64,000 bases of DNA from an uncultured Ruminococcus sp. Its GTDB lineage: Bacteria; Bacillota; Clostridia; Oscillospirales; Acutalibacteraceae. A program made the position numbers and the translations under genes. The notes below the pieces were generated by a model. It was not told the DNA's origin and made no database searches. It was given only the letters and a program-made list of their open reading frames with translations. The stretch's first letter is position 1, and each line of letters begins with the position of its first letter. Below, piece after piece: positions 35,582 to 62,099 of the stretch. The stretch is from contig CADCOE010000049.1 in NCBI GenBank assembly GCA_902802985.1, positions 1 to 64,000 on the forward strand. Direction: 5' to 3'.

Positions 35582-35622
35582 AAAATGAGAGAAAACAACC
35601 GGATGTTGCTTTCTCTCATTTT
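35582..35622. terminator. Terminator after the giant surface protein operon
   Basis: A 13-bp stem AAAATGAGAGAAA / TTTCTCTCATTTT extended by AAC/GTT, with T-runs on both strands. It lies 24 nt beyond the stop of the giant gene. Confidence 0.85.
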
Positions 35623-35645: not shown

Positions 35646-38600
35646 TTATGACTTCTTAGCTCGTTTTTTTCTGATGAAAACGGCTATTCCGAAAATAGAC
35701 GCTATTATCACGGCAATGACACCAATCAATACCGAATAGAATACAGGCTTGTTAGCATAGAAAATGATCCAATTATTTTGTGATACTGTTACATTTTTAA
35801 TGATTTTTTCAGTTTCATTGGTATTTCCCTCTGCATTAACTGCCACATCGTCACAATAAATCTTTACCTGATTTTCAAATCCTTCAGGAATAGTAAACTC
35901 AACAATATCATTATTTTTCTTGAGATAATCGATGAGTTCCTTGCCGGATTTATTAAATCTGACGCTAATATCTTTTCCTGAAGCATCTTTGACAGGATTA
36001 CCCGACGCATCGAGTACAACAATTTTCATATTATGAAGTTTACCGCTATTATCGGTAACAAGCACAGTAACTTTTTGCTCACCAACTTGATAACGACCCC
36101 CTTCTTCAATGCCGGTGATCGTAAGAACCGGTGCTTCTCTGTCAACCATAAATTCAATAAAGACTTTGGTTCCTTCTCCTTTACTATATGCTGAAACGCC
36201 CATTTGGTCGGTTGATTGAACAGTAATTTTATATTCGCCCTCATTAGCAAAATAATCTTTGCTGATGGTGTATTTGGCAGTACACCACTTTGAAACGCCA
36301 TTGTCAAGTTCAACAGTCAAGCCGTCGGCTTTTGTGATTTCATCACTGCCGTTCATAACAGCATATTTTTTGATTGGAACTACATTGATCTCCTCTATGA
36401 CAATATCGTGGTCGACATTATAAACATAACCGTTTTCTATCATCTTTTTGGTATTAGTATCCATACGGAATGTCGGTCCGTTACGGTTAATGGAAAAGTC
36501 AAGCTTTTCATAAATCTTATTATCAGAAAGTGTTATTTTGTTATTTTTGTTGCCTGCCAGATCCGCTGCTGAACATCGAAGCGTATAAACCGCATCATCT
36601 TTCAGATTGTCTATCTGATAAGAACGGGAAGATGCATTCTGAGAGGTAATATACGAACTGAGATCAATGTCTTTGGTTTCAAAATTACCCGAGGAATTGA
36701 TCACAACAGCAGTAAGGCTAACTGATATAGTATTGGGGTCTAAATGAAGATCGTTAATATCAATCGAGAAACCTATCTTTTGTGCGTTAGTTGCTTCATT
36801 ATGACTAATACCCTTAACACGAATGGTTGGTGCTTTGGTGTCTATAACAATTTTATCAGACTTCACTTCTTGCATTACATTGTTGGAATGGTCGGTATAA
36901 TTAACAAAAACATAATATTCGCCTTCCTCGGACAATGTAAATCTTCCGGTATGTATATCTGTACTATTGTCTGTCCACTTAGCTTCAACCACCTTTTCCG
37001 AGGAAGTTCCGCTTTGTACATTTTTGACATTAACAGTTACATCTTTTGCGTTAAAATTTGCTTCATTAATAACGATGGAAACGTCTGCTTTCCCATTAAA
37101 ATAAGATGTTCTATCTAACGTTACTTTAACAGGTTCACTCAAACTGAGCCGTCCGACGGGTTTAATGTTGTCTACAACAATTCTCTTTGTATTGTTTTCA
37201 GCAGTACTGTTATCTGACATATCATATGCTACAAAACCTACTGTTCCGTTAAATTGATGTGTTGAATCAAGAACATTCTTTGGTATTTTGAAAGATGCTT
37301 TATTTTCGCTTCCGTTATGTTGAATTGCTGCTTTTTCGATTGCCTCGTTAAGAAGCTGTGCATTGACATTACTTACACCGTTGGCTTTTGTATAGCTATA
37401 TTTGAATTGGTTAATAGCGGTGGTATCATCGGATGCATAAACCGTAACAGTAACAGGAGCGTTATAATAACCAAATGTAATCGTATCAAGAATGTTTTCA
37501 AGGATATTTTTGCTATACTCGATACGAAGACGATACGGCTTATTTTTATCGACCGTAAATTGTGCAGAATTATTACCCTGAGCATTTCTCAGTGCAAGGT
37601 CTTTGTAATGAATGTCAAAAGTATAGTTGGCATCTGCGGAATAAGTAATGGTGGCCGTGTATATATCACCATTTCTGCTCCAATTGTTTCTGTTTTTCAG
37701 ATAAGAATTATAATCCGTCACAGTAATTTCTTTATTGCTGACATCTACCGCTTTGACGGTGGCTGCTATATCATCTGCACGAAAATTGTGCTCATGAACT
37801 GTTATCGTCGCCGTTTGCTGCGCATCATAATATTTTCTTCCGCTAACTGTGCGGATCACTTTATCCGGTGAATAAGCAACATTGATGGTTGGGTTTGTAT
37901 GATCAATTACAATTTCATTGGATGTATAAGTACGCATCTGATTATTAGATCTGTCCTTATATTCCATTGTGATGACATATTCACCCTCATCTGTCAATGT
38001 CAGTGAGGCAGTGTGAGTATCTCCACTGTGACTCCAACCTGTCAAAGTATAACGTGTACCATTGATTTTAACATTGACATCCTCGGCGATAAAGTTTGCT
38101 TCATTGATCATAAACGTGGCAGTTGCTCGGTTATCATAATAAAGTTTGTATTGTGAGCCTTCTGTAGTATAGTTATAGGTTCTCTCTGTATTAAGGTTAG
38201 AAACCCTTACGACCTGAGTCGCCTCACTGAACGTTACCGTTCTTTCCGGTGAAATATTATCAACAATAATCACTTTTCCGGTATCGGTCTTTTCTGCACT
38301 ACGCAGACCTGCGTTATTCGTTGCAGTAAAGGAAATATTCCCTCTGTACTGCCTTGCCTGGGCAGATGTAAGTGTAAATGAAACAGAGGTGGTCTTTTGA
38401 TCACTGGCTGTAACAATAGAACCCCCGTCTTTTTCCAGTTGGCTCGTTTTATGAGCAGACTGAGCATTATAACTCCAGTCAAACCGTTGGATACCCGATA
38501 TATCATCAGAAGCTTCTAACGTTACTGTTACTCCTTTTTGATATGCATAATAACCAAATGTAACACCGTTCAATACTTCCTCCCACAAATTGAGAGGCGT

Positions 38601-41600
38601 ATCATAAGAGATTTTCATATCAGACACAGAAGGTGCAGAATGATCTACCGCAAATGGTTTTGAAACCTTTGTTCTGGCTTTATTATCAGCAAGGTCAGTA
38701 TCATCAACTGTCAGTATATAATTAGCTTCCTTCTTGAAAAGATAAGTTAACTGATGCACATTGCCGCTGTGTTTCCAGTTTTTATCATTACGGAAATAAG
38801 CTGCTATTTCTTCTCTGTCAAAAGTAAGATTTTTACCTGTTATATCTTTCGCTGTGATTTTTGCTACAACATCAGCTGCATTAAAATTATGCTCTGTGAT
38901 GATAACAGTAACAGGATAATCCTCACCGTTATATCTGACAGCAGAAGAACTTTCTTTGCTTCCATACTTCATTTCGACCACTGGTGCGGTGTTATCAATC
39001 ATTATCAGACGAGAAGTAAACTCTTTCATCTCATTTTCAGCATAGTCTTTATAGGTCATTTTAACCTGATAGTCACCTTCTCCATAATTTTTACTATCCT
39101 TCGAGATGACAAGCTCCGCTTTCCAATGGTCTCCTCCTATAGACGTCCATTTGAGTGTCGGTGTGATGGTTGATTTTTTACCGTCAACGGTTGTCTTTTC
39201 CACTTTTACAAGTGTTTCGTCTGCATTAAGATCAAAATTAGACTCGTACATATTGAATGTCAGCGTTGCTTTATCCTGATAATACAAAGTTGCTCCTGAT
39301 TTGGGCTGAGCAGCACTGTACTCTACTGTTACGGTCGGACTGATATTATCCACTACAAGAATGTGGTCATTTTCGGAATAACTCATCACGTTGAGGGAAC
39401 GATCCATCGCTGTAAATGAAATACTTCCTCTGTATTGACGTGCTTCTTCTGCCGTTAATCGGAAAGAAGCAGATGCTGTCTTGAGATCTGGATCGTATTT
39501 GACATCCGTAATAATCTGCTTTTCCGTTTCAACATTAGTGACACTGGTACCGTCTTCACGAGTATAGCTCCATTCAAACTGCTTAATACGTGCCGTTTCA
39601 TCTTTTGCATAAAGAGTAACATCTACATCACTATTATAGGAAAAATATCCAAAAGTAATGGTATCAATTATTTTTGTAAAAGAATTTCGATGGGGTTTAC
39701 TGTACTCAATACTAAGATCGGTAGGAGCTGTTACATCTACCGTGAAATGATCTTCTTCATATTCATCTGAACTGCGAAGAGCCAAATCCTGATAGTCTAT
39801 ATCGAATGTATAGTTGGCATCCTGTGCAAATTGTACCGTTGCTTTGTGGACATTTCCTTCACTCATCCAGTTATCTTTGTTCCGGAAAAAGTCTTTGGGA
39901 TAAATCTTTTTACCCTCAAGAACATCCAAGTAATAATCGATTGATTTTCCATTGGCATCAACAGCATTCACTTGGACATTCATATCTTCCGGTCGGAAAT
40001 GATCTTCTTTTACAGTTACAGTTACTGTACGGGCAGCATTGAAATAATCAATACCATCCATTTGATTTTGAGGAGTTGTGGGATCATACTGTACATCAAT
40101 GACCGGATTGGTTTTGTCAATAACAATTCTGTTAGACAGGTAATCTTTCATCGGGTTGCCTGCGTGGTCATTTCCCGACATCGCAATACGATATTCCCCT
40201 TCATCATTCAGTGTAAGAGAATATTGCCAATCTTCTGCACTTACTTGTTCCCATTCGATACTGATATTCTCTGTTTTGCTGTCAAGAAGATTTTCAACGG
40301 AGATGACAACGCTTGCCGGATCAAAGTTAGCTTCTTTGATCTCAAACACCGCAGTTGCAGCAGTATCATAATAAAGAATACTATCCGGTCCCTCGGTACG
40401 ATACTCATAATCCTCTATCGTCTGTAATGTCTCGGCATCGACTACCTGTTTTGCCTCGCTGAAGGTCACACTTCTTTCGGGAGTAACGGTATCAATAATA
40501 TTGATACGATTGCTATCATCAAGTGAAGAAGCATTACCGGAACGGTCTTCTGATGTAAAACGATAACTTCCTCTTATCTGCTCCAATTCATCTGATCTCA
40601 CGTCAAATTCAGCTGTCGCTGTAAGATAGCCGTCTGCAGGTTCATAATGAATTTTTTCTTCTGAAATCAAACCGGATTTTTTCAGGGTATTGATAGTACT
40701 TACATTCTCTTCACGGTTCATTTCCCACTTAAATGAATGGATTTTTGTTGTTTTGTCCTTTGCCTTCAAAGTAACCCTCGCATTACTGTTATCTTTATTA
40801 TAGGCAAAATATCCGAAAGTAAGGGTATCTATTATTTTCGTCCACATATTGCTCTCCTTGGGGGAATAGATGATCTCAAGAGATTCCGGAGAGGTGGTAT
40901 CTACTGTAAAGTGTTTACTGTATGCGTTGGCTTCTGTATTGGCGTGGTTTTTGTAATGAATGACAATATCGTAATTGGCATCGACATCAAAACGCAAAAC
41001 AGCGGTGTGTTTTGTTCCTTCGTTTTCCCAGTTATCACTATTTTTTAAGTAGGCAGAATAATTAGACACTGCAACATTATTTCCTAATGCATCTGTTGCC
41101 TGAACTGCAATATCAACATTGCCGGAATAGAAATATTTGGTATCAATAGTGACTGTTGCTTCCTGAGCAGCACAGTAATATTCCCTGCTGTCAATCGTTT
41201 GCTGAACGTCTTTGTTAGAATAAACAACATTGATTTCCGGCTTTTCATCCGAAATGACAATTTTATTGGAACGATAAGATTTCATTTTATTGGTACTGTA
41301 GTCCGTATAATCCATCTCAATGATATATTCGCCCGGATGATGGAGGGTATAGCTGCCTGTCCATTGGTCATCGCCGATATTGTTCCATACTATGTCGCTG
41401 ATATTCCATCCGGCAGAATTTAATACGTCAGTTACTGTTATTTTAACATCATCCGGATGGAAATTCGCTTCTGTTACAGTAAAGGTTGCCGTTGCTTTCT
41501 CTTTATAAATCAGAATGTAGTTTGAGCCTTCTGTTGTATAATCAAAGCTGTCTTTCGGTTTTAAGCTCTTTGCTCCAATCACCTGTTCTGCCGGACTAAA

Positions 41601-44600
41601 TTCAACTGTCCTTGTGGGAGCAATATTATCAATAACAATTCTGCGTCCGTCATCTGTAACGGGTAAGCTTTTATTTCCTGCACGGTCTATTGCTGTAAAG
41701 CTGATTTTTCCCCGATACTGTTTAAATTGCTCCGCCGTCAGCTTCTGTTTGGCGATTGCCACTGTTTTGATTGGATTGCCTTTGTCATCCATTATCGTTT
41801 TGTATATCAGCTCATCTTTCGTAAATGTGCCGCCATCGCTTTCCAAGTGGGACTGGCTTGCCTCTGAACTGCGGTCATACTGCCAAGAAATACTCTCGAT
41901 ACCTGTCGTGGGATCCGTTGCTTCAAACGTTACTGTCACCTGATTTTGATAGGAATAATACCCCAATGTCAATGAATCAAGAACCTCTTCAAAAAAATTC
42001 TTTTCTTTACTGAAAGACATTTTCAATTCTGACGGAGCCGTATTATCAAGTATAAATTGCTTTTCCGGATAATCTTTCGCACGATTGTTGGCAGGATCTG
42101 CATAATCAATATCAAAGGTATAAACAGCATCATCCGTAAATGTGATTTCGGCTGTATGCTTAATACCATCCGATTTCCAGTTATCAGGATTATTGAGATA
42201 ATCATTGTAGGATATTTTCTTACCATTTTTGGCAACAACCGATGTATCAACACTGTTTCCAAGTTCGTCAACTGCTGTGACCACAGCATTAACAGCATAG
42301 GCATTGAAATTTTTCTCGGAAATGGTAATGACTGCTGTTTGCTCTTTAGAAGTGTCATCTGAGTTTCTGCGGAAACAGTCAATTCCCTTGACATTGCTGT
42401 CGGCGGTTTTGAGCGAATAGTCAATGCTGATAATTGGTTTTGTATTGTCAATTACAATTTTATTGGAAATATAGGATTTCATTTCATTGGAACTGTAATC
42501 CTTATATTCCATTTTGATAACATATTCTCCCTCACCACTGATGGTATGGATATATTGCCATTGGTCTGAACCTAAATCGATCCATTTCGCATTATTAATT
42601 TCTTTTGATGTACCCGATACTATATTCTCTACTGTAATCTTAATGTCTTTTGCATCAAAATTCACTTCATCAACTGTAAACTTTGCACTGGCCGTATTCT
42701 TATAGTAAAGATTGTATTGGGAACCTTCTGTTGTATAATCATAATCGTTAACCGTCAAACCGGTATCGGAATTGATAACACTCTCAGCGGGACTAAACTC
42801 TACTGTTCTGTCAGGTGCTACACTATCCAATATGATGATTTTATTTTTATCCGTTATTTCAGGGCTGGTTTTTCCTGCATTATCGGTAGCAGAAACATAA
42901 ATTCGTCCACGGTAAAATTCGTTCTCGTTCTCATTAAGAGTAAAGGTTGCTGTGGCAATTTTTCCATTGCCTGCTGTAGAATAAGTAATGTCTTTGCTGT
43001 CAATCACACCATTTTTGGATGAAATATTGGTATCACTTGCGGTTCCCTGTCGATCATATCTCCAACGGAAACTGGCTACTTTTGAAGTAACATCCTTAGC
43101 CTTGATCGTGATAACAGCATTTTTTTTGTTGGCATAATATCCCAAAGTAACAGAATTAATTACTTTTTCAACAGGTGTCAGATTTTTGGAGTAGGTAATG
43201 CTCAAAATTTCAGGAGCAGTTCTATCAATATTGAGGTTTGTTACCTTAACACTTGATATCGAACCATCACTGATTTTTTTGATATAAAATTTAAGCGTTT
43301 TGTTCGTGCAGTCTTCTGCGTACTGATAGGTACTCTTCCAAGTTCCAGAGGATAAATTGCTGTCACTCAGCAAATAACCCGTCTTTGCCTTCAACACAAC
43401 CCCTTTAGCAGTATTGTACCAACCGTCTTTATCAGCGGCAGTAACCGTAAAGTGGGCAGAAGTGTCAGCATTGACAGAGGCAATATCATATGTATTTTCA
43501 CTTTGATAGTTCAATGAAATTTCATATGACGCCGAAACACTTTTATATTTACTGTTCTCAGTCAATGTTGCCGTAATGCGTGCTTTACCATTGCTAACAC
43601 CGTCATTGAAAGTGACCTCACCAGTCGCTGCGTTAATATCGGCAATCGGTTTCCCGGAGATGTTCTTAAAGGTATAATTGATGGATATTTCGCTTTCAGA
43701 AAGATCGGACGGTTTTACTGTTGGTACCGCACAATAAGACTGAGTACCATAGACAATGTCTTGTACTGTCTTATCAAAAGTAAGCTTTGGATTACCTTTT
43801 TGAATTTCAAGGGTATATTCCGCAACAGCATCATTATAGTTGTTTTTTTCATTTGCTGTTTTGGTGGCTCTTACTACAACAGTGCCTGCTTTCTTAGCAA
43901 TAATTTTACCGGTTGATGCATCAATGGTCGCACAATCATTGCCGCTTGTAATTTCATATGTCACTTTACCGTCAATACCACTTTCATCCGCAACGACACC
44001 TAAATCGTATACTAAATGGGCGGTCTCTCTTGCAAATGTAATGCTGCATTTTGACGTACTAAATGAAATCTTCTTTTGCTTTGCTTTATTGATAGTAAGG
44101 TCATAACTGATTGTTTGATCTTCATAGAGATCACTACCCGCAAGTGAAGCCATTACGGTTACTTTTCCTGCTGCAAGAATTTTAACTTTACCAGTTGCCG
44201 GATTAATTTCGGCAATACCGCTTTCTATGCTTTCTCCCGCAGAATTGTATTGTGCAGTAATGGCATAAGCAACATTTTTAGTATTTACTTCACCGCCCAC
44301 CAGCGCTTGTCTGGTATAGTAATTACTGTCACTCGCTTTATAAGTCGTTTCTGTTCCTTTTTTACTGTCGAACGCAAAATCGGCAGGAACCTTTGCAATA
44401 TTAAGATAATAAACCGCCTTTACTGTTGAAAGGCTGCGGTAAATGGCGGTGACTTTCAGCCTACCGGACTTGATCAAACGAATTTTACGATCACTTATCA
44501 GCGTGGCAATCGAATCGGATGTACCGTCTGCATTCTCAATTTGATAGTTTATTTTATCTGTGTACGCCGTAGGAAGTGGCTGTAAATCGGCTGTCGTCTC

Positions 44601-45707
44601 CGTAATGGGAATAGTCACTTCACTATCTCCAAATTGGAAGGTATTATTCTTAACCACGACTGTAAAGGAAACTTCCTTGTCGAAGTAATAATCCGAATTT
44701 GTTACATTAGCAAAAACCTGATAAGTGCCAGGTCCTGTCAAGGAATAATCCAGTACACCATTGAGATAGGTTGCTTTTGTGTTTTTTCCGTCTTTCTTCA
44801 CGGTATAAGTTTCTTTACCATTGTTATCATCACTTTTTAACAACTTCTTGATATAAGTACTGCTATTGGCGATATAATCAACAGTTTCTACTGTTTCAGC
44901 ATTTTCAAAAGTCAATAGAATATCTTCTGTTTTAGGCTCCAACTTGATAACCGGAAGGGTAAACGTCCCATTTTCTGACAAGTCAGATTTCTTTACAGTA
45001 AATTCTTTTGTAGTTTTGCGAAATCCATCCGCCTTTACATCTACAAAATAACTTTCATTCAAAAAAATTCCTCTTGTAAACTTACCTGTATCATCCGTTT
45101 TCAAAACGTTGGAACCTGTATTGTTATATTTGGTAAATCCATAGTATCGAAATGATACATCCGCTCCCTTTAATATATTTCCATCGTTATCTGTTACTGT
45201 TCCGTAAAGCTTGGCACGTTCATTGCCTTTTACAGAAACCTGAAGTAAATTATCATCAGGCTGTTCTTTGTTATACAATGAAATCCTTGATTTATTCACG
45301 GTGTTTTCATAAGAATAACCATAGGCAGAAACTGATTCGACTGTAATATATACATAAGAATACTTATCAAAATGTTCTGTGTATTTTTCTGCAATATCTT
45401 GACTCAATTCAATTTTAGCTCTGCTATCAGAACCTGTATAGACCGAACCTTCATGAAACGAAGTGACACTCTCTTTATGAAGAAAAAGGCGATAGTCAAT
45501 TCTGGCACCATTAAGACCAAAATGTTCGTGATTGCCATTTTCACTGACAAGATCAAGCATAAAGGTAACAACAGTTTTATTTTCTTCCTCCTTTGCTTCG
45601 GCATTGCCGCCTACAGTCAGTGCTATCGTCGCACTTGCCATTACTATCATCACGGCAAGAACTACCGACATCAGTTTTTCGGATATGTTAAATTTTGACT
45701 TTATCAT
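35646..45707 (-). CDS. Giant membrane-anchored surface protein with Ig-like super-repeats
   Basis: 3353 residues. ATG 45707 has AGGAGG 9 nt upstream and opens a signal peptide (MIKSKFNISEKLMSVVLAV, cleavage after AEA near residue 33). Next are an N-terminal domain, a carboxypeptidase-regulatory-like beta domain (about 150-240), and three or four Big-like Ig domains (about 330-800) with the IDASTGKI pattern. From about 850 to 3000 come six super-repeats of about 360-390 residues, each with three Ig-like modules: a GYY/GYF module ending RG-ISFTA-DR-GN, a module with ATF-x-EANF ending EGEY-YKD-SNNM-SN-IVID, and a module with VTVKE-HNF ending DANYTFDIDY-DLA. The C terminus has one transmembrane helix (about 3325-3345) and a basic tail RKKRAKKS; there is no LPXTG. 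Likely an adhesin or cell-surface stalk. Last gene of the kinase/FHA operon; the next gene upstream ends 1 nt from the ATG. Confidence 0.88.
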   Translation of the reverse strand: MIKSKFNISEKLMSVVLAVMIVMASATIALTVGGNAEAKEEENKTVVTFMLDLVSENGNHEHFGLNGARIDYRLFLHKESVTSFHEGSVYTGSDSRAKIELSQDIAEKYTEHFDKYSYVYITVESVSAYGYSYENTVNKSRISLYNKEQPDDNLLQVSVKGNERAKLYGTVTDNDGNILKGADVSFRYYGFTKYNNTGSNVLKTDDTGKFTRGIFLNESYFVDVKADGFRKTTKEFTVKKSDLSENGTFTLPVIKLEPKTEDILLTFENAETVETVDYIANSSTYIKKLLKSDDNNGKETYTVKKDGKNTKATYLNGVLDYSLTGPGTYQVFANVTNSDYYFDKEVSFTVVVKNNTFQFGDSEVTIPITETTADLQPLPTAYTDKINYQIENADGTSDSIATLISDRKIRLIKSGRLKVTAIYRSLSTVKAVYYLNIAKVPADFAFDSKKGTETTYKASDSNYYTRQALVGGEVNTKNVAYAITAQYNSAGESIESGIAEINPATGKVKILAAGKVTVMASLAGSDLYEDQTISYDLTINKAKQKKISFSTSKCSITFARETAHLVYDLGVVADESGIDGKVTYEITSGNDCATIDASTGKIIAKKAGTVVVRATKTANEKNNYNDAVAEYTLEIQKGNPKLTFDKTVQDIVYGTQSYCAVPTVKPSDLSESEISINYTFKNISGKPIADINAATGEVTFNDGVSNGKARITATLTENSKYKSVSASYEISLNYQSENTYDIASVNADTSAHFTVTAADKDGWYNTAKGVVLKAKTGYLLSDSNLSSGTWKSTYQYAEDCTNKTLKFYIKKISDGSISSVKVTNLNIDRTAPEILSITYSKNLTPVEKVINSVTLGYYANKKNAVITIKAKDVTSKVASFRWRYDRQGTASDTNISSKNGVIDSKDITYSTAGNGKIATATFTLNENENEFYRGRIYVSATDNAGKTSPEITDKNKIIILDSVAPDRTVEFSPAESVINSDTGLTVNDYDYTTEGSQYNLYYKNTASAKFTVDEVNFDAKDIKITVENIVSGTSKEINNAKWIDLGSDQWQYIHTISGEGEYVIKMEYKDYSSNEMKSYISNKIVIDNTKPIISIDYSLKTADSNVKGIDCFRRNSDDTSKEQTAVITISEKNFNAYAVNAVVTAVDELGNSVDTSVVAKNGKKISYNDYLNNPDNWKSDGIKHTAEITFTDDAVYTFDIDYADPANNRAKDYPEKQFILDNTAPSELKMSFSKEKNFFEEVLDSLTLGYYSYQNQVTVTFEATDPTTGIESISWQYDRSSEASQSHLESDGGTFTKDELIYKTIMDDKGNPIKTVAIAKQKLTAEQFKQYRGKISFTAIDRAGNKSLPVTDDGRRIVIDNIAPTRTVEFSPAEQVIGAKSLKPKDSFDYTTEGSNYILIYKEKATATFTVTEANFHPDDVKITVTDVLNSAGWNISDIVWNNIGDDQWTGSYTLHHPGEYIIEMDYTDYSTNKMKSYRSNKIVISDEKPEINVVYSNKDVQQTIDSREYYCAAQEATVTIDTKYFYSGNVDIAVQATDALGNNVAVSNYSAYLKNSDNWENEGTKHTAVLRFDVDANYDIVIHYKNHANTEANAYSKHFTVDTTSPESLEIIYSPKESNMWTKIIDTLTFGYFAYNKDNSNARVTLKAKDKTTKIHSFKWEMNREENVSTINTLKKSGLISEEKIHYEPADGYLTATAEFDVRSDELEQIRGSYRFTSEDRSGNASSLDDSNRINIIDTVTPERSVTFSEAKQVVDAETLQTIEDYEYRTEGPDSILYYDTAATAVFEIKEANFDPASVVISVENLLDSKTENISIEWEQVSAEDWQYSLTLNDEGEYRIAMSGNDHAGNPMKDYLSNRIVIDKTNPVIDVQYDPTTPQNQMDGIDYFNAARTVTVTVKEDHFRPEDMNVQVNAVDANGKSIDYYLDVLEGKKIYPKDFFRNKDNWMSEGNVHKATVQFAQDANYTFDIDYQDLALRSSDEYEEDHFTVDVTAPTDLSIEYSKPHRNSFTKIIDTITFGYFSYNSDVDVTLYAKDETARIKQFEWSYTREDGTSVTNVETEKQIITDVKYDPDLKTASASFRLTAEEARQYRGSISFTAMDRSLNVMSYSENDHILVVDNISPTVTVEYSAAQPKSGATLYYQDKATLTFNMYESNFDLNADETLVKVEKTTVDGKKSTITPTLKWTSIGGDHWKAELVISKDSKNYGEGDYQVKMTYKDYAENEMKEFTSRLIMIDNTAPVVEMKYGSKESSSAVRYNGEDYPVTVIITEHNFNAADVVAKITAKDITGKNLTFDREEIAAYFRNDKNWKHSGNVHQLTYLFKKEANYILTVDDTDLADNKARTKVSKPFAVDHSAPSVSDMKISYDTPLNLWEEVLNGVTFGYYAYQKGVTVTLEASDDISGIQRFDWSYNAQSAHKTSQLEKDGGSIVTASDQKTTSVSFTLTSAQARQYRGNISFTATNNAGLRSAEKTDTGKVIIVDNISPERTVTFSEATQVVRVSNLNTERTYNYTTEGSQYKLYYDNRATATFMINEANFIAEDVNVKINGTRYTLTGWSHSGDTHTASLTLTDEGEYVITMEYKDRSNNQMRTYTSNEIVIDHTNPTINVAYSPDKVIRTVSGRKYYDAQQTATITVHEHNFRADDIAATVKAVDVSNKEITVTDYNSYLKNRNNWSRNGDIYTATITYSADANYTFDIHYKDLALRNAQGNNSAQFTVDKNKPYRLRIEYSKNILENILDTITFGYYNAPVTVTVYASDDTTAINQFKYSYTKANGVSNVNAQLLNEAIEKAAIQHNGSENKASFKIPKNVLDSTHQFNGTVGFVAYDMSDNSTAENNTKRIVVDNIKPVGRLSLSEPVKVTLDRTSYFNGKADVSIVINEANFNAKDVTVNVKNVQSGTSSEKVVEAKWTDNSTDIHTGRFTLSEEGEYYVFVNYTDHSNNVMQEVKSDKIVIDTKAPTIRVKGISHNEATNAQKIGFSIDINDLHLDPNTISVSLTAVVINSSGNFETKDIDLSSYITSQNASSRSYQIDNLKDDAVYTLRCSAADLAGNKNNKITLSDNKIYEKLDFSINRNGPTFRMDTNTKKMIENGYVYNVDHDIVIEEINVVPIKKYAVMNGSDEITKADGLTVELDNGVSKWCTAKYTISKDYFANEGEYKITVQSTDQMGVSAYSKGEGTKVFIEFMVDREAPVLTITGIEEGGRYQVGEQKVTVLVTDNSGKLHNMKIVVLDASGNPVKDASGKDISVRFNKSGKELIDYLKKNNDIVEFTIPEGFENQVKIYCDDVAVNAEGNTNETEKIIKNVTVSQNNWIIFYANKPVFYSVLIGVIAVIIASIFGIAVFIRKKRAKKS
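37475..43140 (-). repeat. Six-copy super-repeat region in the giant gene, period 1.08-1.18 kb
   Basis: The GYY/GYF core of successive copies falls near 43135, 41960, 40812, 39650, 38558 and 37475. Copies are clearly homologous in protein but diverged in DNA, so this is an old expansion. The last copy lacks a standard third module and leads into unique C-terminal domains. Confidence 0.8.
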
Positions 45708-45708
45708 A

Positions 45709-46209
45709 TCACTTATCCTCCTGTTTTTGATTTTTACGAGCAACATTCTTTTTAGCAAATAATGTATTATAAATTTTGCCATTGAATATACAATGCATAC
45801 AAAAGCTAAAAACAATCATACTCATAAGTATATAACAAAAATACATCGTTCCATCTGTTACCAACATCAATACAATAAAGGTAATCAGACTGAGCAAAAA
45901 ACAAATATCCGCTGCCATCCCCTCTTTGTTTTGACAAAAACTAATAATGCCAATTTTACGTTCAGACACGTTTTTGGCATCTTTTGTCATCTTCTTAAAT
46001 TCATTCGATAATATCGCCTGTGCAACAACCGCAGCAATAAGACAAAGCCAAAATATTATTCCTGAGATGATGGTGAGCGGGCTGGTCCCACTGTTCATAT
46101 CAGTCTCCCCAAACGGCATTATCAAAAAAGTAATAGACATTAATAAAAAGCTAATGATTGATATGATAAGAAATTTTTTTTGCTTACTACCGTTATTCAT
46201 TGGTTTCAA
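45709..46209 (-). CDS. Membrane protein of the kinase/FHA operon, unknown function
   Basis: 166 residues with four hydrophobic helices (about 13-31, 45-68, 98-117 and 121-140) and a basic C terminus (KKNVARKNQKQEDK). The middle cytosolic or external loop holds KKMTKDAKNVSERKIG. The start is probably the TTG at 46209 with AAGGAG 10 nt upstream; an ATG at 46200 is further away. It ends 1 nt before the giant gene and begins 14 nt after the T-x-V-L protein, so it is tightly co-transcribed. It may assist export or anchoring of the giant protein; no family recognised. Confidence 0.7.
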   Translation of the reverse strand: MKPMNNGSKQKKFLIISIISFLLMSITFLIMPFGETDMNSGTSPLTIISGIIFWLCLIAAVVAQAILSNEFKKMTKDAKNVSERKIGIISFCQNKEGMAADICFLLSLITFIVLMLVTDGTMYFCYILMSMIVFSFCMHCIFNGKIYNTLFAKKNVARKNQKQEDK

Positions 46210-46223
46210 TATTTGATCACTCC

Positions 46224-46763
46224 TTACAATATAATTTCATCTGTATGTATAAAAGTAATATCCACCTCTACCACAAACTGACTCGGACAATTTTCCGAAA
46301 GAACAGTTGTCTGATTAAGAGATGATTTGGTTTCTACCGGAGAATTCGTTAATACGGTTGTCTGGTTTGTTACAGATGAACTGTCCAGAACCATTGTCGA
46401 ATTATTGTCCTCATATTTTTCAAGGACCACTGTTTCAACGAATTGATGGGGAGCAACAGTAATTTTTCCTGTAACAGGTGCATTTTCTTCAATTTTAACA
46501 TTTGTTTTCATCTGTATCCTGCCGGATGGAGAAAACATTCCGTTGACACCTTTTTTTTTCAGATTGTTTTCTAATCGCTGGCTGGTGGACTGTTCCGAAC
46601 GTTCATTAATGGATTTTATTGCTTTTTTGGCAGTAACTCCCGTCAGCAATCCCATTGATTTCGGAATCTTTAAGAAGAAAAATAAAATACACGAAACAAC
46701 CAACATTACTCCACACATAATGATAGAACCGATGGATATATACTGATAGATTTCGTAACTCAT
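46224..46763 (-). CDS. Single-pass membrane protein with four T-x-V-L motifs
   Basis: 179 residues: one N-terminal transmembrane helix (about 9-31), then a basic cytoplasmic linker and a Ser/Thr/Asn-rich tail. The tail carries ETVVL (T111), STMVL (T123), QTTVL (T135) and QTTVL (T152), all threonines with leucine at +3, the spacing preferred by many FHA domains for phosphothreonine peptides. The extreme C terminus (FVVEVDITFIHTDEIIL) is hydrophobic and beta-like. Start ATG overlaps the kinase stop region (shared base 46763). I infer that it is a substrate of the adjacent kinase and a docking partner of the FHA protein. No family recognised. Confidence 0.7.
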   Translation of the reverse strand: MSYEIYQYISIGSIIMCGVMLVVSCILFFFLKIPKSMGLLTGVTAKKAIKSINERSEQSTSQRLENNLKKKGVNGMFSPSGRIQMKTNVKIEENAPVTGKITVAPHQFVETVVLEKYEDNNSTMVLDSSSVTNQTTVLTNSPVETKSSLNQTTVLSENCPSQFVVEVDITFIHTDEIIL

Positions 46764-48505
46764 TATGTATTCTCCCCTTTCATTGCTGTATTGTCGGGAA
46801 TGATGGAATTAATTTTGTTTAACGTTTCATCCAGTTTTTTATTCAGGTTATTTTTTTCATCCGCAGCATATTCATTATCAATTCCGTCTACAACTTTTTT
46901 TAAGTCAGTGATCAACTTGATCAAATCGGATTTTTCGTGTTGTTTTTTCTGACCGTCTTTAACCAACTTAACAAAGCCATCTGTTTCTTCGTAAATAATA
47001 TCATTGATAAATCCAATAATCAAAAGTTGAACATCTTCACCATCAATATTTTTATTATTAATAGCAAAAGCGGTTGGCGTTTTGATAAGGTTTTCTATTT
47101 CTTCTATTTTATCCCAAAGTTCCGAAAATTCTTCATACTGCTTTCCCGTTTGAGGAATGTTCGATGATTTATACTCATCAATCAGTTCCAGACAATCTGA
47201 CATTTCACAAAAAAGTTCTGCCAGCTTATAATCATCTTTTGCTTCCTTAAACCACTTTGCCGAAGCAGTAAATCGGTTTTTTCTCATAGTGGTTTCATTG
47301 GAATACAACATTGCTATTCCTATTTGATAACAAACCTCACTGTATCCTTTAGGGTTTTCACGTTTCAGTTCTTTTAAAACTTCTTCCTTGCCGTTAATAT
47401 TATCCTTTGTGTTAATCCCTGTACGTAGTTGATTGATTTCAGAAATTTCCTCACTGGTCAAACTTTCCTTTTTTAAATATTCTACTAATTCAATATACGC
47501 TTCTGTTCTGGTCGGATCAGTCAGAATAGCATCATAATAATCCTGTGTAGAAGCTGCTTTTGTGATAAGATAGTCGTAATCTTCACTCCGCTGTGCCTGT
47601 GCCGCAAAGCTGCTCCAAACAGCAGTTCCTGCAAACACGAACGTCAACAACACACTCATCGAAAATGTTATCACCCTGCGAATAGCTTTTCTTCTGTTCT
47701 TTTCATCTATTTCATCATAATGCTCCAAAGCATACATCAGTTCAGCACACGACTGATAGCGATCATTGGGATCCCTCTGCGTACATTTCAGGATAATTTT
47801 TTCGAGTCCTCCCGAAAGCATTGGATTGATCTGCCTGATCGGCTTGATTTCATATGGCGGCTCACACGGATTCATTCCCGTTACCAAATGATATAAGGTG
47901 GCTCCAAGACAATAAATATCTGTTCTGGCATCGGTCTGACCCATACCGCCAAATTGTTCAGGAGCAGCATATCCTATGGTACCGAGACAAGTGGTATCTG
48001 CAATGTTTTTTTCTTTATATTCACGTGCTGTACCAAAATCGATCAGGGTAATATTGCCATCCGGTTTGAGCATCAAATTAGCAGGCTTCATATCACGGTA
48101 TATAATCGGAGGCTTTCGAGAATGCAGATAACCCAGAACATCACAAATTTGCTTTGCCCATTCAATGACATACTCCTGCGGCTGTGCTCCGTACTCTTTT
48201 AATGTTTTATCCAACGGATTTCCCTGTATGTAATCCATTACAATCAAAAAAGTATCTTTATCGTCTATCACATCTACAATGCTGGGAAGATTGGGGTGAC
48301 TAAGTTTCTTAAGCATATCTGTTTCTACGATAAGACCTTGTTTCACTACCTCAAAATCCTTGATACCGTCTTTACGTACTTCTTTGATAGCCCATTGTTT
48401 ATTCGCCTTTTCATTCATTGCAAGATAAACAACACTCATACCACCCTGTCCGACTTTATTCAGAATTTTATACTTGCCATCTACAAGTGAACCTATTTCA
48501 AGCAT
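46763..48505 (-). CDS. Membrane Ser/Thr protein kinase without PASTA domains
   Basis: 580 residues. A Hanks-type kinase domain occupies 1-265: glycine loop GQGGMSVVYLA, ATP lysine K41 in AIKEV, catalytic YRDMKPANLM with D138 (the usual HRD is YRD), DFG at 157-159, and the activation segment TTCLGTIGYAAPEQ. One transmembrane helix (about 277-301) follows; the C-terminal 280 residues are helical and TPR-like, rich in EL/KK, not the PASTA repeats of PrkC. The kinase is complete and expected to be active. It lies between the PP2C phosphatase gene (24 nt) and the T-x-V-L protein gene. Confidence 0.93.
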   Translation of the reverse strand: MLEIGSLVDGKYKILNKVGQGGMSVVYLAMNEKANKQWAIKEVRKDGIKDFEVVKQGLIVETDMLKKLSHPNLPSIVDVIDDKDTFLIVMDYIQGNPLDKTLKEYGAQPQEYVIEWAKQICDVLGYLHSRKPPIIYRDMKPANLMLKPDGNITLIDFGTAREYKEKNIADTTCLGTIGYAAPEQFGGMGQTDARTDIYCLGATLYHLVTGMNPCEPPYEIKPIRQINPMLSGGLEKIILKCTQRDPNDRYQSCAELMYALEHYDEIDEKNRRKAIRRVITFSMSVLLTFVFAGTAVWSSFAAQAQRSEDYDYLITKAASTQDYYDAILTDPTRTEAYIELVEYLKKESLTSEEISEINQLRTGINTKDNINGKEEVLKELKRENPKGYSEVCYQIGIAMLYSNETTMRKNRFTASAKWFKEAKDDYKLAELFCEMSDCLELIDEYKSSNIPQTGKQYEEFSELWDKIEEIENLIKTPTAFAINNKNIDGEDVQLLIIGFINDIIYEETDGFVKLVKDGQKKQHEKSDLIKLITDLKKVVDGIDNEYAADEKNNLNKKLDETLNKINSIIPDNTAMKGENT

Positions 48506-48529
48506 AGTAAAATTACCTCAGAATTCAAA

Positions 48530-49297
48530 TTAATATGTTTTTACAAGCAAAGCTGTAATATTATCGGTTTCCTGACGCTGTTTATTCAGTTCTATCAACC
48601 GCTTTGTATTGTTGGTCATCATACCCTGATTGATAAGTTGAGAAGGATTTAGATAATGATAAATTTCTTCCGAGGTAATTTCGTGTCGAAATCCATCCGA
48701 GCAAAGAAGATATACAGCATTTTGTTTGACCCGATTGACAAAGAAATCAGGATATACATTTTCAGATGCACCGATACACTGTAACAATACATTTCTTCTG
48801 CTATCTACCTTTGCCTGCTCCGGGGTCATTCTGCCCAAAGCAATTTCTCGTGCCACAAACGTTTGGTCGTTCGTTAGCTGGACTGTTTTATCATATATTT
48901 CGTATACCCGTGAATCGCCTACATTCATAATATAATATTCTGTTTGAGTCAAAAGCAGTACAGCAGCGGTGGTTCCAAGATTAATTCCCTGCCTTTTGCC
49001 ATAAGCCTTGATCTTTTCATTGATGTCTGTCACGATTTTCTGCCACTCTTCTCGAAGTTGATCCGAATGGATAGGCACAGTACTGAGTATCGGCAATCTG
49101 TTCAATAGCCAGTTTTCAAACGCTTTGATAACCGTTGCACTGGCAACTTCTCCTTTTTCCAGTCCCCCCATACCATCACATACAATCGCAAATACCATAC
49201 GTCCTGTTGGGGTATTCAATACTTTGACACTCAAACTGTCCTGATTGTTTTTTTTTGTTATTCCGACATCAGTACTGGCGGAAACAATAAAATTCAT
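48530..49297 (-). CDS. PP2C-family Ser/Thr phosphatase
   Basis: 255-residue PPM phosphatase. Metal-binding motifs are NQDSLSV, VCDGMGGLEKGEVAS (D41), LLCSDGFRHEI and the final TDNITALLVKTY. No membrane segment, so it is cytosolic, and presumably reverses the action of the kinase encoded next. The intergenic gaps of 24 and 36 nt fit one transcript with the FHA gene upstream. Confidence 0.93.
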   Translation of the reverse strand: MNFIVSASTDVGITKKNNQDSLSVKVLNTPTGRMVFAIVCDGMGGLEKGEVASATVIKAFENWLLNRLPILSTVPIHSDQLREEWQKIVTDINEKIKAYGKRQGINLGTTAAVLLLTQTEYYIMNVGDSRVYEIYDKTVQLTNDQTFVAREIALGRMTPEQAKVDSRRNVLLQCIGASENVYPDFFVNRVKQNAVYLLCSDGFRHEITSEEIYHYLNPSQLINQGMMTNNTKRLIELNKQRQETDNITALLVKTY

Positions 49298-49333
49298 ATA
49301 GATACATTCCTCTCATATCAATCAGACATAGAA

Positions 49334-50833
49334 TTACATCACCAAAAAATCAAATACTTCATTGGCAAGAATAATTTCACTGCCCGAGATCAACGGAACT
49401 TCTTCATTGACAGGAGCCAATCTTCCATTAACATATACATGGTTGGTAGAGTTGGTGTCAACAATATAATATTTTCCGTCTTTTATAATAATATCTGCAT
49501 GTCTGCGGCTGATGGCTGAATTATCAGCAATGAAATAATCCACGTAACTTCTCTCTTTGCCGATATGGAACAAAGGTTTATTGATCGTTACCCTATCTCT
49601 TGTTTTTCTTCTGATAATATATGCAGCCGATGATAATTCAGCAGTATTTCCTGTTAAGACAGTCGTTTCCTCAATATTGGTATTATTATTTTCATATAGC
49701 TGTTGGTAAGCGTTATTCTCGCTTGTTTCAAAAGATGGAGGATAACCAACGTTTCCATTATTAGCATATGAGGAGGAATAATCGTTAGTTGAATTATTTT
49801 GATATGGCTGCTGATCGCTATTATTTTCGCTTGTTCTGAACAATGACGGATAACCGTTGCTGTCAGTACCCTGTTGCGAATACATACCATTATTAACATA
49901 TGATTGGGAATAATCATTAGTTGGATTATTCTGATACGGCTGCTGATTGCTATTATTTTCGCTTGCTCCGAAAAATGATGGATAACCATTACCGTTATTA
50001 CTTGTACCTTGCTGTGGATAGGTAGTATTACTATTCGGATATTGCTGTATGTTATCGTCAGACTGATCGTTTTTATATGGCTGCTGAGAGGTATTGTCGC
50101 TTGCTCCGAAAAATGATGGGGAAACACTGCTATTATCATTAAAATTCTGTGTCGAAATTTCATTTGTCGAAACATCATTCAAATCAGGTTTATATTCAAC
50201 AGTTGTATCTGCTTCTGCTGCCAATTCCGACTGTATGACTTCTTCCTCAATCGATGACTCAGGAATAGAAGGTGCTTCATATATGTCAATCGTGTCAAGA
50301 AATTCTTTGAATTCATCCATAGCAAAAGTATTATTTTCAAGATAATCGGAAAGTTTTTCGGCGTATCCACAGCCTTCATTGACATTATCAAGATGGGCAT
50401 TTTTTAGTATCGTTTGAAATAATATCACTGTATCGGTCTGCGTAGGAGAAATACAAGGCAAACATATCATTGAAATCTCCTCACTGACTTCCTTAACAAA
50501 GATATAATCTATATCAAAAACAATATTTTGAGCTTCTAAACCGTAATCTTCCATATTCATATATGTATTGGCGATTGTTCGAAAGATATTTAAAAAACGT
50601 GTTCGTGTCAAAGTCGTTTGTAAATAATCTGTCAAACTGATAAGGGAAGATATATTGTATGTGGCTAATCGTTTGTTCTCCTCTTCTTGAAATTCAACAG
50701 GTAAAAGACCTTCAATCGTATTATTATTCATCATACCGAGAACCAAACTGTTTTTCTTACACTCTGTCGGTAATGTATAAACTAAGTCATTATGATTATT
50801 TTCAAAAGAAAAATTTTCCTGCACAGTTATCAC
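49334..50833 (-). CDS. FHA-domain protein with DUF6382-like N terminus and Gln/Asn-rich repeats
   Basis: 499 residues in three parts. Residues 1-190 resemble the DUF6382-type domain often found ahead of FHA domains in Clostridia (pseudokinase-like, identification from memory). Residues 236-388 are low-complexity Gln/Asn/Ser/Tyr-rich imperfect tandem repeats. Residues 401-499 are an FHA domain: KPLFHIGKERSYVDY, SAISRRHADI (S442, H445) and NSTNHVYVNGR. Just before it lies EETTVLTGN (388-396), reminiscent of the ETT motif ahead of the FHA domain in GarA/OdhI, where the phosphorylated threonine is bound intramolecularly. No signal peptide. Probable phosphothreonine reader of the circuit. Confidence 0.85.
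   Translation of the reverse strand: MITVQENFSFENNHNDLVYTLPTECKKNSLVLGMMNNNTIEGLLPVEFQEEENKRLATYNISSLISLTDYLQTTLTRTRFLNIFRTIANTYMNMEDYGLEAQNIVFDIDYIFVKEVSEEISMICLPCISPTQTDTVILFQTILKNAHLDNVNEGCGYAEKLSDYLENNTFAMDEFKEFLDTIDIYEAPSIPESSIEEEVIQSELAAEADTTVEYKPDLNDVSTNEISTQNFNDNSSVSPSFFGASDNTSQQPYKNDQSDDNIQQYPNSNTTYPQQGTSNNGNGYPSFFGASENNSNQQPYQNNPTNDYSQSYVNNGMYSQQGTDSNGYPSLFRTSENNSDQQPYQNNSTNDYSSSYANNGNVGYPPSFETSENNAYQQLYENNNTNIEETTVLTGNTAELSSAAYIIRRKTRDRVTINKPLFHIGKERSYVDYFIADNSAISRRHADIIIKDGKYYIVDTNSTNHVYVNGRLAPVNEEVPLISGSEIILANEVFDFLVM
49670..50128 (-). repeat. Imperfect tandem repeats coding Gln/Asn-rich linker
   Basis: Four units starting with (Y/S)PSFFGASEN-type sequence at residues 238, 284, 328 and 364 of the FHA protein (periods 46, 44 and 36 residues), each followed by QQPYQN and NDYSxSYxNNG. 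DNA similarity between units is visible, so copy number may vary between strains. Confidence 0.75.
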
Positions 50834-50842
50834 TCCTTTGAT

Positions 50843-51874
50843 TTACGCAAATGTGTCAAATACAGCCATACCTGATACTCTGTCCAATAATTGTTCAAAA
50901 GTATCCATTTTAAACTGAGGTATTCCACCGACATTCTTTATGTCATCTCTTTCTATAATGCTGCTTGCCGCATTGTCAAAACGATTATATAAAACATAGG
51001 TTTTGTTGGAAAGCGTTTGACCATATTTGGAAAGATGAATATACTTCATCACGGTAAGCAGTTTTGCATTGGAAATCGACGAACCATCACTTACAAGAAT
51101 AAAACTATCTGAATGGTTGTAAAACAACATTGCCTCTTTGCTGATACTACACTCCGCATCAATGACAATATAATCATATATTTCCAATGAAGCGATTGTT
51201 CTAACAACTAAATCATAATCAGATATGGTAATCGTATCATCATTAGCATCTAAAGAAGAATAAATACATACTTTGCTTTGATCTTCCGCTTCAGAACCTA
51301 CCAGTTTCGCTATGGTTTCTTCTGTATTGTTTTTCAGCCCTGCCACAATATCCTCTATTTTGAGATCACTTTCAGCCGAGAAAAAATATTCCGTCGAATG
51401 AATTTTTTCAAAATTGAGATATAGCACATTTTTTCCTTTACTTGCAAAATGAACAGCACAAGATGCAGCTGCTGTTGAGGAACCTGTACCGCCGCCTGCT
51501 GAAGCAAATATGACCGTTTTTGGTGCAGCCGGTGGCTGATTGACCAAATCTTGATACAATTGGCTTATTTCATCAAAAATAGCGCTGACTTTTTGATATT
51601 TACAGATCGCTTTTTTGCCGTTAACGATCTGTTTTTCTGCTGAATCCGTCAAAAACGCAAAAGCACACTTTTTGGGAATGGATCTGCTGGAAATATCGAA
51701 TTGATCACCAGCAAGAAATACATTGATTTCCTCTTTTCTGAGAGAAGCGATTGCTTCATTGCAATCATCAACAGAAAAGACCTGCAATTCTTCGGGATAC
51801 TTTTTAGAGAGCAATGCAGGAATTTTTTTAAGATAATCGAAATCATCCTCTAAGATCAATACTTTTATTTTCAT
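50843..51874 (-). CDS. CpaE/TadZ-like ParA-family ATPase with degenerate P-loop
   Basis: 343 residues: a receiver-like N-terminal domain (1-110, MKIKVLILEDDF, without a clear phosphoacceptor pattern) and a ParA/MinD-like domain. The deviant Walker A reads ASAGGGTGSST (124-134), so the usual KGGxGKST lysines are replaced by A126 and S132. Switch-like segments DYDLVVRTI and YDYIVIDAECSIS are kept. TadZ/CpaE proteins place pilus machinery at cell sites and often have weak P-loops. No other tad genes follow; instead it leads the FHA-phosphatase-kinase-adhesin operon, so I infer it positions that system. Confidence 0.8.
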   Translation of the reverse strand: MKIKVLILEDDFDYLKKIPALLSKKYPEELQVFSVDDCNEAIASLRKEEINVFLAGDQFDISSRSIPKKCAFAFLTDSAEKQIVNGKKAICKYQKVSAIFDEISQLYQDLVNQPPAAPKTVIFASAGGGTGSSTAAASCAVHFASKGKNVLYLNFEKIHSTEYFFSAESDLKIEDIVAGLKNNTEETIAKLVGSEAEDQSKVCIYSSLDANDDTITISDYDLVVRTIASLEIYDYIVIDAECSISKEAMLFYNHSDSFILVSDGSSISNAKLLTVMKYIHLSKYGQTLSNKTYVLYNRFDNAASSIIERDDIKNVGGIPQFKMDTFEQLLDRVSGMAVFDTFA

Positions 51875-51973: not shown

Positions 51974-52003
51974 ATTATATATCATACATAACAAGTGTGT
52001 CAA
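51974..52003 (-). promoter_or_regulatory. Promoter of the kinase/FHA/adhesin operon
   Basis: Minus strand TTGACA (51998-52003), 18-bp spacer, TATAAT (51974-51979); both hexamers are perfect. The 5' untranslated region would be about 93 nt. No other promoter of this quality was seen before 35646. Confidence 0.7.
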
Positions 52004-52093
52004 TCATTAGATTTCTTTTTGTAAGATTAATATTGATTTTTTAATAAAATATTTTCGATTTACAATTATTATTGATACCCACATGTACAATAA

Positions 52094-52128
52094 AAACGCA
52101 GCGATACGGTTATAGCATCGCTGCGTTT
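52094..52128 (-). terminator. Terminator of the Ig-like protein gene
   Basis: A perfect 12-bp stem AAACGCAGCGAT / ATCGCTGCGTTT followed by TTTTTATT on the minus strand, directly after the stop at 52133. Confidence 0.88.
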
Positions 52129-52132
52129 CGGA

Positions 52133-53110
52133 TCATTCTACTGTAAGCTTTAAATATTGTTTAGTGTTTTTATCCTTACCGTTTCTAATGGAGATACAGA
52201 TACTGTAATTTCCCTTTTGTTCGGGGGTAAACTCAAATTGGGACAATCCCTTCTTTCTTTCAAGAAGTGTCCACTTGTTCTCAGTGATTTTTCTAATGAA
52301 GTACTTAAAAACAAAATCAGAAACATCCTCTTCCATTTCTGTTATGATAGTAACAGGCTCTGAAAGCGCTATTGTATCAGCGGAAAGGCGACAGTTCGCA
52401 TCGAGTGTAGACTGAACCGTAAACGGCAGTTGTTTTTCTGCAATATTGTCTTCAGCATCTTTGATTTTTACGTTAATGATGTAATCGGTAATAAACATTG
52501 GTTTATAAGTAATGCTGCTTTCTTCACTGAAATCTGAAATTGTTTTCCAATTTTTAATATCATCGTGCTTAACATAATAGGCATAACGATACGGTGCAAC
52601 ACCGCCCTCCGCTAATGCAGTTACTGTAAGTTCTTCGGTATAATTTACTACATCCGTGGAAAGCTTTGATGTATTAATAAAATGATTGGTAATAGTGAAC
52701 GGAATATTCATTGCTCCTGTAAAATTGCCTTGAAATATCAGTTTAGCAGAAGCATTGCCTGGCTTAATGTTATCGGCATATTCAACATTGTAATCGATGC
52801 CTTCTTGAAGTGTTATTTCTCCAAATTTCACAGCAATATGCATTTCGTGCGGCTTACCGTCATATTCAAATTCTGTGTTATCCGCAAAAAACGAAAGAGA
52901 TTTGGCAGGCACAGGTTCTATTTTGAATGTATTTTCTACGGTACCGTTAAACTTTCCCTTGCCGTAGATTGTTACATGTGCCGTACCAACATTGATATTG
53001 TCCGTCATTTCAACAGCAAAATCAACGTCCTGTTCAAGCTGCTGATCGCCTATTTTCAGCGAAATCTTTGGAACAATCGGTTTTCCTGTATACAAATACG
53101 AATTATTCAT
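52133..53110 (-). CDS. Ig-like/MBG repeat protein without a signal peptide
   Basis: 325 residues. The N-terminal half has two repeats of the YTGKPIVPKISLKIG...GTAHVTIYGKGKFNGT kind (about 3-75 and 82-155), usual on secreted surface proteins. The C-terminal half has two Tyr-rich Ig-like units (about 160-245 and 248-325) with FVFKYFIRK and YRYAYYVKH motifs. ATG 53110 (MNNSYLYTG) has GGAGG 6-7 nt upstream, so the protein starts directly in the first repeat with no leader; a start at 53140 would not make a signal peptide either. It has its own promoter and terminator. Either it is exported by another route or is a clipped relic; related units recur at the right edge. Confidence 0.75.
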   Translation of the reverse strand: MNNSYLYTGKPIVPKISLKIGDQQLEQDVDFAVEMTDNINVGTAHVTIYGKGKFNGTVENTFKIEPVPAKSLSFFADNTEFEYDGKPHEMHIAVKFGEITLQEGIDYNVEYADNIKPGNASAKLIFQGNFTGAMNIPFTITNHFINTSKLSTDVVNYTEELTVTALAEGGVAPYRYAYYVKHDDIKNWKTISDFSEESSITYKPMFITDYIINVKIKDAEDNIAEKQLPFTVQSTLDANCRLSADTIALSEPVTIITEMEEDVSDFVFKYFIRKITENKWTLLERKKGLSQFEFTPEQKGNYSICISIRNGKDKNTKQYLKLTVE

Positions 53111-53139
53111 AATAAGCCTCCAAAAATATTTCTGCAACA

Positions 53140-53168
53140 ATTATAGCATACTTTTAGCCGATTGTCAC
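53140..53168 (-). promoter_or_regulatory. Promoter of the leaderless Ig-like gene
   Basis: Minus strand GTGACA (53163-53168), 17-bp spacer, TATAAT (53140-53145). Confidence 0.6.
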
Positions 53169-62070: not shown

Positions 62071-62099
62071 ATTATATATTTTAATTCAAAATATGTCAA
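62071..62099 (-). promoter_or_regulatory. Perfect consensus promoter of the P-type ATPase gene
   Basis: Minus strand TTGACA (62094-62099), 17-bp spacer, TATAAT (62071-62076). 39 nt upstream of the ATG. Confidence 0.75.

Follow-up and report, generated by a model that had tools for sequence, protein, structure and literature searches.

What does a cell do with an operon that joins a TadZ-like ATPase, the proteins of a Ser/Thr phosphorylation circuit and a giant surface protein, without the core genes of a pilus or of a secretion system? This question is raised by seven open reading frames (35646-51874, minus strand, as are all features of the operon given below) in a window of 64,000 nucleotides, the whole stretch of DNA that was analyzed, from contig CADCOE010000049.1 of an uncultured Ruminococcus sp. 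In order, they encode a TadZ-like protein, a DUF6382-FHA protein, a PP2C-type phosphatase, a Ser/Thr kinase, two membrane proteins (P5 and P6) and a giant Ig-like protein. The recomputed gaps of 9, 36, 24, -1, 14 and 1 nt agree with the initial annotation, which had described seven closely packed genes on the same strand, and a Shine-Dalgarno-like sequence precedes each of the 7 genes. Our answer, to which we give a probability of about 0.55, is that these genes make up a pilus-less derivative of a Tad (type IVc) pilus operon, in which tadZ and the regulatory and envelope tail were kept.

This reading starts from gene order in related loci. We compared 80 named loci drawn by kinase similarity alone, i.e. 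a single kinase family, mostly from Clostridia and some from Bacillaceae. The PP2C gene lies directly upstream of the kinase in 73 of 76 loci, and a P5 homologue directly downstream of it in 71 of 77. In 48 of the 61 loci with enough sequence, one of the genes within four of the kinase encodes a protein of 1000 residues or more. As judged from sequence comparison, Clostridia and Bacilli thus share a conserved module, FHA-PP2C-kinase-P5-(P6)-giant, and the earlier view of these genes as one conserved unit was borne out. Tad genes occur in the flanks of 16 loci; genes of a type VII secretion system (T7SS) flank others. The full Tad operons (ten related operons read through, and G065) run from tadZ-tadA-B-C-flp to a final FHA-PP2C-kinase-P5, usually with a prepilin peptidase and a WG-type protein just ahead of the FHA gene. 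When the pilus block is taken out of such an operon, what is left is exactly the operon of the window, where no tadA, tadB, tadC, flp, prepilin peptidase or pseudopilin gene was found. In Lachnoanaerobaculum (L206), an intact Tad operon has at its end tadZ directly before the FHA gene, and elsewhere in the family sample TadA adjoins TadZ at 15 of 16 TadZ loci. The initial annotation was right that no tad (beyond tadZ), esx or tss core gene lies inside the operon. Its further claim, that the gene set is unrelated to ESX and Tad operons, had to be given up, as in many Clostridia the Tad operons end in the same set, which is also present in T7SSd/e-like loci.

Phylogenetic analyses point in the same direction. 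In a quick kinase tree (SH-aLRT support, no bootstrap; all trees unrooted), the kinases of the window and of two other species of the same genus (G022 and G050) group in a single clade (SH-aLRT 97), which sits inside a set of 16 kinases (SH-aLRT 99) that are mainly Tad-linked. The T7-linked kinases found within this genus lie far away from those of the window type. The TadZ proteins of the same three genomes also group together in a clade (80/86), next to the TadZs of Tad operons. For the six genes compared, third codon positions are 36-48% identical, against 62-83% at second positions; as third positions diverge far more than second ones, all six genes are under purifying selection. A decaying Tad remnant was considered and rejected, since all genes are intact and the promoter is conserved, and since three species show strong codon-position constraint.

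The genome to which the window belongs (2.08 Mb, 99.4% complete) carries a separate Tad operon on two contigs. One of them (C35) encodes TadZ, TadA, B and C, a Flp1-like pilin, a TadE-like protein and a DUF5702 protein, and the other (C74) starts with pseudopilin-like, prepilin-peptidase-like, WG-repeat and DUF6382-FHA proteins. The two contig ends probably adjoin in the genome, because the resulting gene order equals that of complete Tad operons elsewhere. Downstream of its FHA gene, this Tad operon lacks the PP2C, kinase, P5, P6 and giant genes of the present family; large secreted proteins with carbohydrate-binding or PKD-like matches (C74; L013:5563-10861) stand where other operons have PP2C-kinase-P5-giant. 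Among the 64 genomes of the congeneric set, this one included, it is the only one with TadA, all other matches being short, weak and of the PilB/PilT kind. TadZ-type operons were found in three of the 64, namely this genome, G022 and G050. In G022 and G050 (drafts, 88% and 93% complete, respectively), neither TadA nor WXG100 was detected. Similarly, the window's genome gave no match to WXG100 (PF06013) and no ATPase of EssC size: its sole FtsK/SpoIIIE match is a 970-residue frame on contig C24, read as an ordinary FtsK, and each of the three genomes has one such match, in frames of 958-974 residues. The occurrence of the set always within a secretion or pilus locus, which the initial annotation had named as speaking against its proposal, is thus mostly true, although two congeners without TadA or WXG100 were found.

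Five other congeners (G023, G037, G044, G046, G059) have a different form of the module, in genomes that have WXG100 genes and an EssC 1660-1680 residues long; in G046 the module, the giant, a second kinase and EssC share one contig. In the four of these five whose FHA protein is fully readable, this protein has a secreted N-terminal domain, trypsin-like by Pfam in G059. One such T7-linked FHA protein (L048:3136-4710) combines a secreted trypsin-like domain, one transmembrane (TM) segment, twin GETTVL motifs and the FHA domain, and is possibly an envelope protease sensor. Two module-type kinases stand in tandem in G059 (L048:5513-8347).

The TadZ-like protein (50843-51874, 343 residues) consists of an atypical receiver domain (ARD) and a ParA/CpaE-type ATPase. 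It matches PF21194 (TadZ-ARD, 2e-30) together with an AAA_31/ParA-type domain, and it aligns over its full length with PDB entry 3fkq (E 6e-53), which we take to be the TadZ of E. rectale. The protein that had earlier been called ParA-like is a TadZ. The next gene (49334-50833) encodes a TseJ-like protein of 499 residues (PF19909 and PF00498), with a DUF6382 domain at 50399-50800 and an FHA domain at 49367-49564 (PF00498). It is followed by a TseF-like PP2C-type Ser/Thr phosphatase (48530-49297, 255 residues, PF13672), which matches NF033484 at 9e-51, under the cut-off of that profile. The TseD-like kinase (46763-48505, 580 residues, PF00069 at 5e-48) is predicted to have one TM segment at residues 278-296 and an outer domain, the topology of all window proteins being predicted from hydropathy. 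Its catalytic motifs are complete and invariant across the kinase alignment, as expected for an active kinase domain. No PASTA repeat was matched in this kinase, and NF033483 aligned over profile positions 1-279 only, below the cut-off.

The remaining three proteins would belong to the envelope. P5 (46224-46763, 179 residues) is TseH-like, with one TM segment at residues 13-31, cytoplasmic TTVL-type motifs and a conserved IHTDEII end. P6 (45709-46209, 166 residues) has four TM segments and starts at a TTG codon preceded by a Shine-Dalgarno sequence. Neither of them matched any Pfam family, and the AlphaFold model of P6 (AF2 pLDDT 90) found no fold match in the PDB at E <= 0.001. The giant (35646-45707, 3353 residues counted from the ATG at 45707) is a TsdI/TseI-like putative surface protein with a predicted signal peptide, Big_3 Ig-like domains (PF13750), a C-terminal TM segment and a basic tail in which no LPXTG is visible. 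A sliding BLOSUM comparison revealed five super-repeats of about 330-395 residues each, pairwise 36-44% identical; BLAST of the giant against itself gave no pairs. Alignment to the window giant was obtained for 47 of 48 giants of related loci, a likeness that is partly one of shared Ig-like domains, as the giants are rich in repeats. A juxtamembrane motif Y-x-N-K/T-P is present in several of the aligned giants (window, Tad loci, Bacillaceae), not in all.

A short threonine motif links the FHA protein to P5. An EETTVL motif lies in the linker directly before the FHA domain (49649-49672), at the same position in most homologues, and P5 contains a cluster of T-x-V-L motifs (approximately 46284-46439). 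Among FHA proteins, TT[VIL]L occurs at 90 sites in 50 of 67 proteins, against 1.9 in shuffled sequences, mostly as two copies located 105-130 residues from the C-terminal end, directly before the FHA domain. In P5, 83 sites were counted in 88 proteins (2-3 in shuffled sequences). Counts of TTVL-type sites were 83-92, against 1-3 in shuffles. In the G050 orthologue the FHA protein lacks TT[VIL]L, and P5 has the motif. The strong conservation of these threonines in P5 and in the FHA linker is compatible with a phosphorylation circuit. In GarA, ETTS phosphosites beside the FHA domain are bound by GarA's own FHA domain (PMC5448819).

The DUF6382 domain is predicted to adopt a kinase-like fold. Its AlphaFold2 model (pLDDT 91.6) was compared by Foldseek with the PDB, and the 50 best matches listed are all protein kinases or kinase-homology domains, that of Rv3910 among them (best E 6e-5). 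No conserved HRD or DFG motif was seen in the DUF6382 alignment. Because a kinase fold is matched and catalytic motifs are not visible, we read the domain as a putative pseudokinase; a weak KIND (kinase non-catalytic C-lobe) match in one homologue, below the cut-off, favors this idea. Four Lachnospiraceae-type proteins fuse a TadZ receiver to DUF6382-FHA (L141:2996-4288, L145:7886-9163, L163:4942-6225, L131:2-1303), the receiver match being below the cut-off in one, and the existence of these ARD-DUF6382-FHA fusions ties TadZ to the FHA protein. Where flanks are available (L141, L145, L163), the fusions have housekeeping neighbors (Sua5- and RpiB-like) and PP2C and kinase genes downstream; P5 follows in L141 and L163, and no giant was seen in the available sequence of the three.

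The mechanism that we infer for the pilus-less derivative would be the following. The kinase would sense the envelope through its outer domain and would phosphorylate TTVL threonines in two places, P5 and the linker ahead of the FHA domain. The FHA protein, whose N-domain is pseudokinase-like, might then alternate between two partners, its own linker (as in GarA) and phospho-P5, and in so doing build, position or release an assembly in the membrane that consists of P5, P6 and the anchored giant. TadZ would mark the site of this complex and PP2C would reset the switch, while the giant would span the wall as an adhesin or envelope tether, for which a pilus would be unnecessary. It is a guess that the switch acts on the P5/P6/giant complex. 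The initial annotation had put forward that phosphorylation may gate the giant's export, positioning or stability.

Several points weigh against this interpretation. No experiment on the module, in its Tad or stand-alone form, was found in the literature searched. G022 and G050 are drafts from whose assemblies Tad or T7SS genes could be missing, an objection for which a dozen Tad genes would need to have been missed in both. The window's genome itself has a Tad operon, so that action in trans is possible there, and unrooted trees do not tell whether the pilus core was lost or inserted. As to the pseudokinase, the idea rests on a fold match with a TM-score of about 0.56, and a profile-profile comparison of DUF6382 with the kinase of the module gave no signal.

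Other explanations have to be weighed against a pilus-less derivative. The operon could act in trans for the cell's own Tad pilus, the separate Tad operon relying on the PP2C, kinase, P5, P6 and giant of the window. That operon indeed ends after its FHA gene, which in nearly all other such operons is followed by PP2C-kinase-P5-P6-giant, and its TadA and TadZ belong to the type that is linked to the module. We nevertheless regard this supply in trans as unlikely, because G022 and G050 keep the operon under constraint with no TadA found, and because the operon has its own FHA gene and a divergent TadZ, 36% identical to the TadZ of the Tad operon. A quite different origin, as the accessory half of a T7SSd/e-type system whose WXG100/EssC core was lost or lies elsewhere and for which the giant is the secretion conduit, is very improbable, even though the architecture matches TseJ, TseF, TseD, TseH and TseI, the T7SSf protein TsfV has a TadZ-like receiver (PMC11217815) and the five congeners with a related module possess EssC and WXG100 genes. 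Neither WXG100 nor an EssC-size ATPase was found in the window's genome, G022 or G050, and the kinase of the window groups with Tad-linked, not T7-linked, kinases. Moreover, the module does not seem to need a T7SS, since among 13 genomes whose module is Tad-linked, 12 gave no WXG100 match (the remaining one has marginal matches only), whereas WXG100 is present in 22 of 29 other module genomes. A T7SS remnant was therefore rejected as the leading explanation, given that WXG100 and EssC are absent and that the kinase falls outside the T7-linked clades.

There is finally hardly any chance, in our estimate, that kinase and phosphatase are an ordinary housekeeping pair of the PrkC/PrpC type with the surface-protein gene as a bystander. 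The two proteins match the PASTA-kinase and Stp1 families, respectively, although below cut-off, and some Lachnospiraceae have FHA-PP2C-kinase, with or without P5, among housekeeping genes and with no giant seen. However, a separate PrkC-like kinase match exists in the window's genome (contig C67) and in most congeners, the giant follows the quartet in the 48 of 61 loci counted above, and the juxtamembrane motif of the window giant recurs in giants from Tad loci and from others.

The operon is preceded by a sigma-70-type promoter of exact consensus, TTGACA-N18-TATAAT (51974-52003), 100 nt from the start of the first gene; the perfect hexamers announced at 52003-51974 were confirmed, with a spacer of 18 nt. 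Exact TTGACA-N16-18-TATAAT matches number 3 in the window, against 0.18 expected from mononucleotide shuffling, the other two lying at 62099 and 5774 (-). The orthologous operons of G022 and G050 have the identical exact hexamers and 18-nt spacer upstream, which makes a chance origin of the promoter unlikely. A hairpin at 52088-52132 (-23.6 kcal/mol, z -8.1) closes the upstream gene and sets the operon apart. That gene (52133-53140, minus strand) encodes a 335-residue protein with weak Y_Y_Y and filamin-type matches, for which a search against viral contigs returned no match. At the other end, the strong terminator proposed at 35582-35622 is a stable terminator-like hairpin (-23.7 kcal/mol, z -7.6); its T tract is short and a simple terminator scan did not list it. 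We infer that all seven genes share one transcript. Elsewhere in the window, a T-box leader is present at 18451-18674 (minus strand, 112 bits). Among related loci, a PP2C-kinase-P5 trio without giant (L146:9198-12062) precedes an ATP synthase operon by a few genes, and L147 and L149 share similar upstream neighbors with it. Also, a TPR protein beside EssC in three T7SS loci (L191:9033-10568, L192:3039-4604, L193:6319-7872) matches the model of the WG-repeat protein of Tad operons (E about 1e-10) and may be one more part that Tad and T7SS loci have in common.

The study that defined T7SSc-j saw Tad components beside some T7SS clusters and left shared regulation open (PMC11217815), and in the literature searched we found no paper describing the module in Tad operons or alone. 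The whole shared module is visible here in three settings, namely Tad loci of genomes without WXG100, T7SS loci, and an operon with neither core; the question of regulation shared by Tad and T7SS thus becomes directly testable, and a role of the giant as T7SS conduit only is argued against. We tentatively propose, with less than even confidence, that the module is an interchangeable, phosphorylation-gated envelope platform that Clostridia and Bacilli combine with either of two unrelated nanomachines, Tad pili and T7SSd/e, and also use alone with TadZ as positioning protein, the TsdI/TseI giants being general wall-spanning tethers or adhesins rather than T7SS conduits. The TTVL motifs of P5 and of the FHA linker, together with the modelled kinase-like fold of DUF6382, would point to a membrane phospho-switch.

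Among known systems, the Tad operons of Clostridia (L094, L102 of L. rogosae, G065) are alike in having tadZ first and FHA-PP2C-kinase-P5-P6-giant last, with a TadZ/CpaE-type ATPase and with kinases among which that of the window groups, and they differ by the pilus block that the window operon lacks. T7SSe comprises TseJ, TseF, TseD, TseH and TseI (Garrett, Higginson and Palmer 2024, PMC11217815), and this accessory set is entirely present in the window operon when matched by published composition and architecture. In T7SSe/T7SSd, TseJ is a DUF6382-FHA protein, TseF a PPM phosphatase, TseD a kinase, TseH a protein with one TM segment and a short cytoplasmic part, and TseI/TsdI a protein with signal peptide, Ig-like domains and C-terminal TM segment. 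Unlike these systems, the window operon has no WXG100, YukD-like or EssC/TsxC gene, its kinase falls outside their clades, and it has TadZ and the four-TM P6. T7SSf shares the AAA ATPase with a TadZ-like receiver domain (TsfV; PMC11217815), the DUF6382-FHA protein and the PPM phosphatase, but it has T7SS core genes and no associated kinase. The GarA/OdhI switch of Actinobacteria offers an analogy in the ET(T)-type motif of the extension just before the FHA domain, where self-binding may occur; GarA regulates metabolic enzymes, whereas here the motif recurs, as putative phosphosites, in a membrane protein of the operon. The EssB pseudokinase and EssC FHA domains of T7SSb also bring a non-catalytic kinase fold and FHA together in a membrane machine (PMC11217815), a likeness in the way of working; in the operon, the putative pseudokinase and the FHA domain are in one soluble chain. 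With PrkC/PknB-type kinases, the window kinase has in common a kinase domain and one TM segment, not PASTA repeats. The operon lacks the features that define a T7SS and, of those of Tad loci, TadA and the pilin, and it appears to work like the regulatory and envelope half that the two share.

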